From contig JAFGTE010000013.1 in assembly GCA_016934215.1 (NCBI GenBank), positions 62,001-126,000 of the forward strand: a stretch of DNA of 64,000 nt, given 5' to 3'. Both the position numbers and the translations under genes were made by a program. This stretch comes from Candidatus Peregrinibacteria bacterium (GTDB lineage Bacteria; Patescibacteriota; Gracilibacteria; UM-FILTER-43-11). The notes beneath the pieces are model-generated. The model was given only the letters and a program-made list of their open reading frames with translations, was not told the origin of the DNA and did no database searches. This document shows, one piece after another, positions 16,107 to 39,972 of this stretch (positions within the stretch are counted from its first letter, which is position 1; each line of letters starts with the position of its first letter).

Positions 16107-16280
16107 AATATTAAAATAAAAAACTCAGCGCGCAGACGATGAGACAGGACTAAGGATTAAGGACTAAGGACTAAGTGCCCCTATCCCAATCAATACCTTA
16201 GATGTGTATCTCGGCAGGTCTTACTAAATGCCTGCTGTCTGCGACAACAAGCATTATATGGGTCTGAGAGCTGAAGTCAA
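16107..16280 (-). promoter_or_regulatory. rplJ promoter (TTGACT-N16-TATAAT) and structured leader, candidate L10 leader
   Basis: Minus strand: TTGACT (16275-16280), TATAAT (16253-16258), then GCAGGcatttagtaagaCCTGCcgag hairpin; '(C)CTGCCGAG' resembles L10-binding leaders. Confidence 0.45.
16147..16174. repeat. Heptanucleotide repeat GGACTAA-GGATTAA-GGACTAA-GGACTAA in the rplJ leader
   Basis: Direct reading. Confidence 0.85.
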
Positions 16281-16290
16281 ATGTTTTTTA

Positions 16291-17994
16291 TTAAATCGAT
16301 TTATCAGCCTTTTTGAGTCGTTCTTCCGCCTGGGGAAAAGAAGAGATGGCATGCAGCATGGCCTGAACACTGGCTACTTTTTCATCTCCGTCGACAGAGT
16401 AACCGGTTCTTTCTGTGTTGGTTGCCATACATCGCATGGTTACCATGGCAACCACTTCTGAATCCGCACCTTCATCTGTATTATAGGTTTCCCAATGAGT
16501 CAATTTCAAATTAAGTCCCAGTTCTTTTTCCAATGTCTCTTCCACAATCGGTAAAGATCCCCCCGTTGAGTCTCCACTTCCAGATTTTTCTTCTCCATTA
16601 ATGGCATAAGTGAAATCCAGGTGTGTTCTGCGCTTTCCCCCTTTTTCCTCAGGGACCCGGCTCTTGGGATCAAAGTCTCTCAAATAAATCAGTTTGCCGT
16701 TTTCAATTTCTGCCCGCCTCACCACCTCGGGGTTACGGTAAACAAAGGTTCTGATGAAATTTAAACGTCCTTCCTTGCCCGCATAATCAGCATCTTCTCC
16801 CCTTTCAATGCTTTTTAGGTAATCCTCATAAATCCGGCTACAAATAGACAAAGGAAGATGGACCCCCATTTCTCCAAGGACTCCGGCGACTCCACTGCGC
16901 CCCATGGCCGGGCCCACTTTGTAAATATAGGCCGGTGCTCCAAAATCGGCTGGGTTCTTCTTAATGTAGGAATCCGGATCGGCATTGATTTTGTCTGCAT
17001 GAATACCGGCCGCGGTGGATCCGGTTTCATTGCCGACCACCCGGTGCTGGCTGAAATCTATACCAAAAACGGGGGCAGTTACTTCTGCCAAATGGCGCAT
17101 ATGCTCTGGATTTACTGTGATTTCATTGATCTTACCTGATGTTTGGAAGCGTTGCACTACATGAATTATGTCAGCATTTCCGGAACGTTCACCCACCCCC
17201 AGTACTGTCACCCCAAGCTGACGGGCTCCTGCCCGGTAGGCCTGAATCGTATTTTCTACCGCAAGTCCGTTGTCGTCGTGACAGTGGGCAGCGGTAATCA
17301 GTCTCCTGTAAGCAAATTCGGCGGCCATACCACTGACCAGCTGACTGTAATGTCGATGTAATTTTTCATGCTCATTGGGGTCATCCAGATTGCTGCCGGC
17401 CGTTCCATGCGTGTCCGGATAATCCAGTGTCAGTTCCAGATTCGTTCGGTATTCAGGAGGTGTGAGTTCGTTAGCCCGTCTGATGGCGGCCTGAGTCAGC
17501 TCATCCATAAAACCTAAGTCTTTTACCTGGCTGGCTCCCTCAAAATAAATGTGCAGTTTTGGTGCCTGGCCGCGTTTAGTGAATTCCTTAATACTGTTTT
17601 CAATGCCGGAGGTCATCCTTCGCATGGCTTCTTCTTTACTCACCCCTTTGGCTTCACGAAGACACTCTGCCGTGGGTGTCAGCATGGACATACGCGCTCT
17701 CCCCTGATGAATAGCTTCATCCAAAGTGCCTACCGCTTCTACAATGTCTTTTTCGACTCCATCACGTACAAAAGCAGCCAGTTCAATCTGCTTGGTTGTT
17801 TTAAAGATCTGGCGAATCATATCACGATTAGGCCCACTCGTAGCCATGGGCATTTCGGCCACATTGACACCGGCTTCTTCCAGTGCCACCGCGATTTTAA
17901 CGGCTTCATCGGTTTTGATTTGTTTTTCGGCCGCCTGGGCGCCGTCACGCAGGGTGGTGTCAAAAAATATTACGTTTTCCTGTTCTGGGTTCAT
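16291..17994 (-). CDS. 2-isopropylmalate synthase / (R)-citramalate synthase-type enzyme (HMGL-like plus C-terminal LeuA regulatory-like domain)
   Basis: 'FFDTTLRDGAQAAEKQI', 'AHCHDDNGLAVENTIQAYRAGARQLGVTVLGVGERSGNADI', C-terminal 'GSGDSTGGSLPIVEETLEKELG...'. LeuA versus CimA is not resolved from sequence. Confidence 0.85.
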   Translation of the reverse strand: MNPEQENVIFFDTTLRDGAQAAEKQIKTDEAVKIAVALEEAGVNVAEMPMATSGPNRDMIRQIFKTTKQIELAAFVRDGVEKDIVEAVGTLDEAIHQGRARMSMLTPTAECLREAKGVSKEEAMRRMTSGIENSIKEFTKRGQAPKLHIYFEGASQVKDLGFMDELTQAAIRRANELTPPEYRTNLELTLDYPDTHGTAGSNLDDPNEHEKLHRHYSQLVSGMAAEFAYRRLITAAHCHDDNGLAVENTIQAYRAGARQLGVTVLGVGERSGNADIIHVVQRFQTSGKINEITVNPEHMRHLAEVTAPVFGIDFSQHRVVGNETGSTAAGIHADKINADPDSYIKKNPADFGAPAYIYKVGPAMGRSGVAGVLGEMGVHLPLSICSRIYEDYLKSIERGEDADYAGKEGRLNFIRTFVYRNPEVVRRAEIENGKLIYLRDFDPKSRVPEEKGGKRRTHLDFTYAINGEEKSGSGDSTGGSLPIVEETLEKELGLNLKLTHWETYNTDEGADSEVVAMVTMRCMATNTERTGYSVDGDEKVASVQAMLHAISSFPQAEERLKKADKSI

Positions 17995-18015: not shown

Positions 18016-18040
18016 AAAAAAAATCCGCCGGGTGGCGGAG
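18016..18040 (-). terminator. Intrinsic terminator hairpin just upstream of the LeuA/CimA gene (attenuator 3:4 stem)
   Basis: Minus strand: TCCGCC-accc-GGCGGA-TTTTTTTT, ending ~21 nt before the structural gene ATG. Confidence 0.85.
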
Positions 18041-18080
18041 TAATGGTGCAGTTAGTTTTATTATGTGCAAAATTATCCGC

Positions 18081-18134
18081 CTAGGCAGGTTTCTGGATAA
18101 TAATGCTAATAATGTTCTGGCTTACTGTGTTCAT
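18081..18134 (-). CDS. Attenuator leader peptide MNTVSQNIISIIIQKPA (5 Ile in 17 aa)
   Basis: Minus strand: ATG AAC ACA GTA AGC CAG AAC ATT ATT AGC ATT ATT ATC CAG AAA CCT GCC TAG, followed by overlapping alternative stems and a terminator. Confidence 0.75.
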   Translation of the reverse strand: MNTVSQNIISIIIQKPA

Positions 18135-18142
18135 CGTGGGCG

Positions 18143-18171
18143 AGTTTAACGAGTGATAAAGAATATGTCAA
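18143..18171 (-). promoter_or_regulatory. Promoter TTGACA-N17-TAAACT for the attenuator leader
   Basis: Minus strand: TTGACA (18166-18171), TAAACT (18143-18148); leader ATG at 18134, so 5'UTR is ~0-2 nt. Confidence 0.65.
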
Positions 18172-37929: not shown

Positions 37930-39972
37930 ATGCTCAAAAAAATCCTTAAATATATCGGCTTGGGGGCCGCGCTCCTACTATTGGTTTTTCTGGTGATGCA
38001 GAGGGGCTGGTTTATGGGGATTCAGCATAGCCTGCAGAATAAATTTTACGACTACGATTCCGCCAGCAGTGAAATCGTGATTGTGGCTATTGATGAAAAA
38101 AGTCTGAAACCTGAAAATCTGGGGCCTTTTAAAAGCTGGCCGCGTATGAATTACGCTAAGGCTATTGATGTTTTAAATGCCAATAACGCCGCTGCTATCG
38201 GGATCGATGTGACCTTTCCGGATCACTCCATTTTGGGCAGAGATGACGATCAGACACTTGCCGATGCCCTTTCTCAGTATGACAATGTAATTCTGGCTTC
38301 CCGTTATTATTTTGACGGTGAAAAGAAGGGTTATGAATGGCCTAATGAAACAATTCTCAAGGGCCATCCGGTCCCGGGCTGGATCAACATACAACTGGAT
38401 CCGGATGGTTTTGTGCGGTCATTGCCGCTCTTTGCGGAATCGGATAAAGGGGTGATTGATGCCTTTTCGCTGGCACTGGCCCGAATTTATCTGCGTGCGG
38501 AACCTTCCGATTACCGGGTTGTAAATAATTATTTTGATTATTCCGAAACTATTCAGATCCCCTCCTGGACCGAAAAAGATAAAGAATCCGGTGAAGAAGT
38601 TCATTTTATGTATATCAATTACTTCGCTCAGCCCAATAAATTCACTCATATTTCCTTTTTCGATCTGCTCAACGGGAATCTGGTTGATAAAAAAGGAAAC
38701 CCGATCGACTTTCGGGATAAAATTGTGATCATCGGCCCCACGGCGATCGATCTGCAGGATGATTATCTTTCACCGGTCAGCGAGGGGGTGCGTATGCCCG
38801 GCGTGGAAATTCATGCCAATAATGTCCAGACAGTCATCACTCAGCAGTTTCTGCGGGATCAGTCTAAACTTAGCCTGTGGCTGACCATTTTGGGTATTTT
38901 AGCTGTAAATATTGCGCTTTTCTCATTACTTAAAGTCCGCTACACCATTCCGCTGGTTCTGGTAGAAGTATTCGGTATGCTGGTGGCCGGTATTGTGGCT
39001 TATGAGTCCCGCATTCTGGTAAACGTGGTGTATCCGATTCTGACCATTCTGCTCAGTTTTATCGGCACTTATTTACTGCGTTTTATTATGGAGCAAAGCC
39101 AGCGCCAGTTCATTGAAGGGGCTTTCGGCCATTACGTGAACAAAGATGTCGTCAGACAGATCAAAAAAGATCCTCATATGCTGGAACTGGGGGGTGCCAA
39201 ACGTGAAATCACGATTTTCTTTTCGGATATTGCCGGCTTTACCACTATTTCCGAAAAACTGAAACCGGAAGAACTCGTTAAGTTTTTGAACGAATATCTG
39301 GGCGAGATGACCACTATCATCATCACCAACCAAGGAACTTTAGATAAATACGAGGGGGACGCCATTATGGCTTTCTGGAATGTCCCTATCCCCCAGCACG
39401 ATCACCCGCTGCATGCCTGCAAAGCGGCTCTGGAAAATCAGAAACATTTGGCCAAACTTCGTGAAAAATGGGCAAAGACCGGCCTGCCGGAGATTCATAT
39501 ACGTATCGGCCTGAATACCGGTGAAGCGGTCGTGGGAAATATGGGTTCTGAGAACCGCTTTGACTACACCGCCATGGGGGATAACGTGAATCTGGCCTCC
39601 CGTCTGGAAAGTATCAACAAGCAATACGGCACCCGCATTTTGATTTCAGAAAGCACCTACGAAGCTGTCCGGGATCATATGATCTGCCGGGAAATCGATC
39701 AGATTCGCGTGAAAGGGAAGCATGAGCCGGTGAAGATTTATGAACTGATCTGTAAAAAAGAAGACCAGACTAATGAAATCAACGGAAGACTGCATAAATA
39801 TGCTGAAGCTCTGATGCTGTACCGCAGTAAACGTTTTGCCGACGCTCAGACACATTTTGAACTCCTTAGAGGTGATGGCCCCTCTGATTTAATGATTCTG
39901 CGATGCGCTGAATTCATGAAAAATCCACCCGCTGAAGATTGGGATGGCGTGTGGAATTTTGAAGTAAAATAA
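37930..39972 (+). CDS. CHASE2 sensor + class III adenylate cyclase
   Basis: N-terminal TM and CHASE2-like extracellular region, three TMs, then 'ITIFFSDIAGFTTISEKL', 'LDKYEGDAIMAFWN', 'YTAMGDNVNLASRLE': metal Asp, Lys/Asp (adenine) and Asn/Arg catalytic positions look conserved. Confidence 0.9.
   Translation: MLKKILKYIGLGAALLLLVFLVMQRGWFMGIQHSLQNKFYDYDSASSEIVIVAIDEKSLKPENLGPFKSWPRMNYAKAIDVLNANNAAAIGIDVTFPDHSILGRDDDQTLADALSQYDNVILASRYYFDGEKKGYEWPNETILKGHPVPGWINIQLDPDGFVRSLPLFAESDKGVIDAFSLALARIYLRAEPSDYRVVNNYFDYSETIQIPSWTEKDKESGEEVHFMYINYFAQPNKFTHISFFDLLNGNLVDKKGNPIDFRDKIVIIGPTAIDLQDDYLSPVSEGVRMPGVEIHANNVQTVITQQFLRDQSKLSLWLTILGILAVNIALFSLLKVRYTIPLVLVEVFGMLVAGIVAYESRILVNVVYPILTILLSFIGTYLLRFIMEQSQRQFIEGAFGHYVNKDVVRQIKKDPHMLELGGAKREITIFFSDIAGFTTISEKLKPEELVKFLNEYLGEMTTIIITNQGTLDKYEGDAIMAFWNVPIPQHDHPLHACKAALENQKHLAKLREKWAKTGLPEIHIRIGLNTGEAVVGNMGSENRFDYTAMGDNVNLASRLESINKQYGTRILISESTYEAVRDHMICREIDQIRVKGKHEPVKIYELICKKEDQTNEINGRLHKYAEALMLYRSKRFADAQTHFELLRGDGPSDLMILRCAEFMKNPPAEDWDGVWNFEVK

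Follow-up and report, generated by a model that had tools for sequence, protein, structure and literature searches.

What does a short reading frame rich in isoleucine codons do in front of a lone synthase gene, in Patescibacteria, lineages presumed to have almost no amino-acid synthesis? The locus lies on the minus strand of a 64,000-nt stretch of a Candidatus Peregrinibacteria genome (“the window”), whose assembly comprises 1.01 Mb in 34 contigs. Certain families of its class use TGA as an amino-acid codon, a trait that points to GTDB Gracilibacteria, to which the Peregrinibacteria belong as well. We conclude, with a probability of about 0.87, that the leader is a ribosome-mediated attenuator responding to charged tRNA-Ile, with a single gene of the citramalate synthase type under its control, although its regulation in the cell remains to be shown. 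The attenuator logic and the isoleucine specificity had been proposed, and a CPR host considered, in a sequence-only reading of the window, and all are upheld. The observations, made on sequence, by folding and by comparison, concern the parts of the leader, their exclusive pairings, their conservation, the agreement of leader codons with the type of enzyme, and the lack of the remaining pathway genes.

Parts and folding of the leader

Reading of the sequence and a mechanical scan both identified a sigma-70-type promoter, TTGACA-N17-TAAACT (18143–18171, minus strand, as are all features below unless stated), with 10 of 12 matches in the scan. The −35 box TTGACA (18171–18166) is separated by 17 nt from the −10 box TAAACT (18148–18143), which ends 8 nt 5′ of the leader ATG. 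The leader mRNA is thus predicted to start about 0–3 nt 5′ of this ATG and to be near-leaderless. The leader ORF, MNTVSQNIISIIIQKPA, extends from ATG to TAG (18081–18134) and was recognized from the sequence and from homologous leaders. Five of its 17 residues are isoleucine, and the control codons read ATT ATT AGC ATT ATT ATC, the last three Ile codons being consecutive.

Segment 1 (ATTATCC, 18095–18101) lies within the Ile codons and pairs with segment 2 (GGCGGATAAT, 18072–18081), the first base of which is also the third base of the leader's TAG. Segment 2 can alternatively pair with segment 3 (ATTACTCCGCC, 18034–18044) to form an antiterminator with one bulged C, and segment 3 can pair, via TCCGCC, with segment 4 (18016–18029). 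The latter consists of GGCGGA (18029–18024) followed by eight T residues (18023–18016), the 3′ arm and tail of an intrinsic terminator. This terminator (TCCGCC-ACCC-GGCGGA-U8) was found in the sequence, by mechanical scan and by folding, between the leader ORF and the start codon of the synthase (ATG, 17994). The pairings 1:2, 2:3 and 3:4 are mutually exclusive, as judged from sequence and folding. The promoter, leader ORF, four segments and U8 tail had been described beforehand by the sequence-only reading, and the coordinates that it gave agree with the sequence base for base.

Folding with and without segment 1 masked, which that reading had called for, gave the terminator in the full leader and the antiterminator in the masked one. 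The full leader folds into 1:2 plus 3:4 at −27.5 kcal/mol (z −3.25 against dinucleotide shuffles). When segment 1 is removed or masked, the 1:2 helix is lost and the antiterminator 2:3 forms (z −4.35, again against dinucleotide shuffles). A further fold assumed a ribosome stationed at the first of the three consecutive Ile codons and extended as far as the end of segment 3; the antiterminator then had a z of −4.0, and 0 of 200 shuffles, all of which retained segment 3, were as stable. A search of the genome for ATHATH..ATHATHATH returned 31 matches, 30 of which were examined, on both strands. Among these, the synthase leader alone combines a short frame with a terminator behind it, and no second Ile attenuator was found. 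Based on the fold z-scores, the uniqueness among the Ile-run matches of the genome and the same architecture in homologues, we judge that the architecture of the leader is not due to chance.

Under the proposed mechanism, RNA polymerase would start at or just before the leader ATG. If Ile-tRNA is ample, the ribosome would reach the stop codon, segment 3 would be free to pair with segment 4, and transcription would end at the U run. If Ile-tRNA is short, the ribosome would stall on ATT ATT ATC and cover segment 1; segments 2 and 3 would then pair, the terminator would be blocked and the synthase would be made. The locus has the sequence features that a ribosome-mediated attenuator requires: a leader ORF with an Ile run that is conserved in homologues, a segment 1 that a ribosome stalled on the control codons could cover and that competes with the antiterminator in folding, and an antiterminator that, through the 2:3 pairing, shares the 5′ arm of the terminator. 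Leader translation, stalling, termination, readthrough and the response to charged tRNA in the cell are inferred, as there are no transcript or protein data.

Recurrence of the leader at homologous loci

The two best homologues of the synthase (G005 and G335, 28–30% protein identity) carry the Ile leaders MKTFATQIITTIIIPA and MNKTAQNIIIAIIISSPHGE together with terminators. Thus, orthologous loci lacking the leader or its stems, which would have counted against the proposal, were not what we found at these homologues. A Pfam PF00682 search in genomes from the class (359) and from the phylum (384) yielded 127 synthase upstream regions, which were scanned without regard to the amino acid (20 amino acids). 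The scan required an ATG frame of 10–45 codons in which one residue occurs three times in succession and fills four or more of nine positions, together with a terminator 25–90 nt past the leader stop. It returned 17 Ile, 24 Leu, 1 Lys and 1 Ser leaders with terminators, against 0.05 Ile and 0.05 Leu leaders per set of dinucleotide shuffles, and no Ile or Leu leaders on the opposite strand of the 127 regions. Four of the matches lie outside the class (L198, L199, L208 and L209). The curated list holds 18 Ile and about 30 Leu leaders. Where a genome has both synthase genes, one is preceded by a Leu leader and the other by an Ile leader. Presence of the gene is patchy, and some relatives in the same genus lack it altogether. 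Leu leaders also precede LeuA-type genes in genomes that read TGA as a residue (L144–L155), where the attenuator design thus recurs under a changed genetic code.

The 42 homologous leaders with a terminator have stronger antiterminators than their shuffles (combined p about 1e-26), a signal driven more by the Leu group than by the Ile group. The mean antiterminator z of the Ile group is −1.2, and several Ile leaders are no stronger than shuffles. The terminator forms in 28 of the 42 full leaders versus 14 of the 42 masked ones; in L137 and L132 it persists in the masked minimum-energy fold. An alignment of close Ile leaders did not lend itself to a covariation count, the sequences being too alike and the loops unequal in length.

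A strong promoter precedes 31 of 49 leaders, with the end of the −10 box 4–12 nt before the ATG in 28 of these 31 (median over the 31, 9 nt), and motifs resembling a Shine-Dalgarno (SD) sequence are nearly absent before the homologous leaders. Because of this combination, the leader mRNAs of the homologous synthases are probably leaderless or nearly so. Among the window genes, only 2 of 45 are preceded by an SD-like motif (random expectation 6%), and this genome may as a rule rely on translation that is leaderless or independent of SD motifs; the near-leaderless start and missing SD motif of the leader agree with this general habit. In several window genes a TATAAT-like box lies about 10 nt 5′ of the ATG.

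Could the leader be a relic or transcriptional noise, an Ile-rich ORF that happens to lie by an unrelated terminator? A single locus could arise by chance, expression data are lacking and presence in the genus is patchy. However, the arrangement recurs at at least 18 Ile and about 30 Leu synthase loci where 0.05 would be expected per amino acid, the distance from leader stop to T run (median 48 nt) and the promoter spacing are constant among the homologous leaders, and the attenuator was retained where the enzyme itself was exchanged (see below). We therefore regard a chance origin as highly improbable. We give equally little credence to another kind of leader device, such as a T-box, an amino-acid riboswitch or a protein-bound leader, in which the ORF would be incidental. 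All such devices have terminator/antiterminator pairs in common, but covariance models detected no T-box or other Rfam leader family at threshold in the leader or its homologues, and what the leaders conserve is not an aptamer but a short frame with consecutive Ile or Leu codons.

The class of the synthase

The synthase (567 aa, 16291–17994) is encoded by a monocistronic gene and has the pocket motif HIYFE. Its HMGL-like and LeuA_dimer domains are both above the Pfam cut-offs (PF00682, 116.3 bits, cut-off 29; PF08502, 25.8 bits, cut-off 24.9), and the catalytic motifs RDGxQ, HxHxD and GxGER are present, and invariant in the alignment of homologues. The two domains and the catalytic motifs place the protein in the LeuA/CimA/homocitrate synthase superfamily. 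The divergent neighbor of the gene encodes an RNA pseudouridine synthase and the next downstream gene is rplJ. An operon with downstream genes was rejected, since a separate promoter and possibly an L10 leader precede rplJ and the neighbors differ at other loci. The segment directly upstream of rplJ (16108–16262) matched the Rfam L10 leader weakly but over its full length (26.9 bits, gathering threshold 44, E 0.16) and is possibly a divergent ribosomal-protein leader of this lineage. Elsewhere in the window (37930–39972, plus strand) is a gene for a protein with CHASE2 and adenylate/guanylate cyclase domains, a signaling enzyme that is notable for a reduced CPR genome.

Profile comparisons did not resolve the class. 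The synthase scored 74.4 bits against TIGR00977 (citramal_synth, the CimA equivalog; cut-off 450), 130.6 bits against TIGR00973 (leuA_bact, the LeuA equivalog; cut-off 598.7) and 52 bits against the NCBIfam model of Leptospira CimA (cut-off 950). As the protein scores closer to LeuA and reaches neither equivalog cut-off, the CimA role that the sequence-only reading had favored on account of the Ile codons needed more than codons; it is supported by the pocket residues and by in-place exchange with classical CimA.

Two positions of the keto-acid pocket, whose roles we assume from the structures of Leptospira CimA and Mycobacterium tuberculosis LeuA, are His and Ser in all 30 Leu-leader synthases aligned, the combination that we take to be that of isopropylmalate synthases. 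The pocket Ser occurs in 0 of 18 Ile-leader synthases, and the window synthase lacks both residues. These 18 synthases do not represent 18 independent events. In eleven of them we found the Asp-x-Glu motif that marks TIGR00977-type citramalate synthases, mostly in the form DAEH. In the remaining seven, including that of the window, the second residue before the Glu is a Tyr, as it is in the CimA of Leptospira: the Leptospira interrogans enzyme (PDB 3ble) reads LNLL and VYLED where the window synthase reads MSML and IYFE. The two proteins share a LeuA-like fold, the keto-acid pocket Tyr and the LL motif (PDB 3ble/3blf/3bli), but are only about 21% identical over the catalytic domain.

In genus g129, genomes G237 and G235 share 81% DNA identity over the attenuator region and 80% over 799 bp of the 3′ flank, yet the synthases behind this conserved attenuator are only 24% identical and belong to different classes. 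The same in-place exchange was detected in genus g109 (G205/G206 versus G204). Judging from these loci (L129/L133 and L125/L128/L138), the Ile switch appears to have stayed unchanged in two genera while the synthase behind it was replaced by one of the other class. Exchange in place behind one attenuator implies that classical CimA and the class of the window enzyme are probably equivalent in function.

It remains conceivable, if rather unlikely, that the Ile attenuator is genuine and the enzyme an isopropylmalate synthase or another chain-elongating synthase, with isoleucine serving as a general signal of branched-chain starvation. The best profile matches are LeuA-type, as is the best fold match (full-length M. 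tuberculosis LeuA, to a predicted model of medium quality, mean pLDDT 74), and a C-terminal LeuA_dimer domain is present. Against this, the pocket Ser of isopropylmalate synthases is found in every Leu-leader synthase and in no Ile-leader one, the enzyme class has been exchanged with TIGR00977-type CimA behind one attenuator, and genomes with two genes assign the Leu leader to one and the Ile leader to the other. Two origins of the Ile leader were considered, but phylogeny did not settle whether the clade of the window enzyme belongs beside CimA or within LeuA: support was 96 in one tree, and in the other the join to CimA was unsupported. We predict that the window synthase is of the citramalate type, its activity being inferred.

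An orphan gene under proposed isoleucine control

The gene had been described as apparently isolated, and the genome bears this out. Searches of the window genome (G000) detected no LeuC/aconitase, IlvD, IlvC, LeuB-type dehydrogenase or IlvB-type TPP enzyme, each of which was found in 14 of 14 control genomes; a branched-chain-type aminotransferase is present. IlvC and IlvD are also absent from all other Ile-leader genomes tested, and LeuC from all of them except G035. LeuC, IlvC and IlvD are present in G344, G347, G026 and G047, which have classical LeuA. The absences rest on draft assemblies (that of the window genome is about 96% complete), though they recur across genomes. Almost no amino-acid synthesis has been described in Peribacteria (PMC4736985), and branched-chain pathways are reportedly encoded in freshwater Gracilibacteria (PMC9166423).

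An Ile-regulated synthase without downstream enzymes has no obvious route to isoleucine in the same cell, and ordinary biosynthesis does not explain an orphan synthase under an Ile-specific switch. There might be an unrecognized isomerase/dehydrogenase route, a partner cell might complete the pathway, or citramalate might be put to another use; we could not tell these options apart. The intermediates made by citramalate and isopropylmalate synthases are committed, and normally feedback-controlled, in Ile and Leu synthesis. As a speculation, the orphan synthases of these probable epibionts might supply such intermediates to a partner cell, whose LeuCD and LeuB would finish the pathway, the attenuators switching on the supply when the epibiont is short of Ile or Leu. 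If true, an epibiont would metabolically steer its host according to the amino acid that it itself is missing.

The mechanism itself is classical. In the ilvGMEDA, ilvBN and leuABCD attenuators of Enterobacteria, as here, a leader ORF with Ile/Leu runs, exclusive 1:2, 2:3 and 3:4 pairings and a U-run terminator precede the first gene of the pathway. The window system differs in being a single-gene unit and a pathway orphan, with a near-leaderless, SD-less leader ORF, in Patescibacteria, and its only control codons are Ile, in contrast to the Ile/Leu/Val mix of enterobacterial ilv leaders. An ATG leader with an Ile run and a terminator also occurs before cimA in Planctomycetota and Deltaproteobacteria, but rarely (4 of 79 loci of other phyla; L240, L264, L284 and L296), and the synthases there, of the TIGR00977 type, are related to L131 and differ in class from the window enzyme. 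In Actinobacteria, leader peptides precede leuA, ilvB, leuS and trp (PMC1262725). Those of leuA are likewise Leu-codon ORFs, but the element is described as a pseudoknot (LEU element) without parts of the classical attenuator (PMC1262725), whereas the leaders in Patescibacteria use classical terminators. The trpL attenuator transcript of Sinorhizobium meliloti begins at the AUG of the leader peptide (PMC7298713); it is a Trp leader in another phylum, and in the window leader a leaderless start is only predicted.

According to a 2010 survey, the leader-peptide systems demonstrated until then were confined to Proteobacteria and Actinobacteria, to which the survey added one in Firmicutes (PMC2965389), and we found no attenuator in CPR in the literature searched. 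Attenuation in CPR, on orphan genes and on near-leaderless, SD-free mRNAs, thus appears to be undescribed. The comparisons, made at the level of sequence, point to amino-acid-specific attenuation being widespread in Patescibacteria. For divergent synthases, the codons of the leader serve as a label from which the substrate class can be predicted. The finding also raises the question of why genomes without LeuBCD and IlvBCD retain a synthase under Ile or Leu control.
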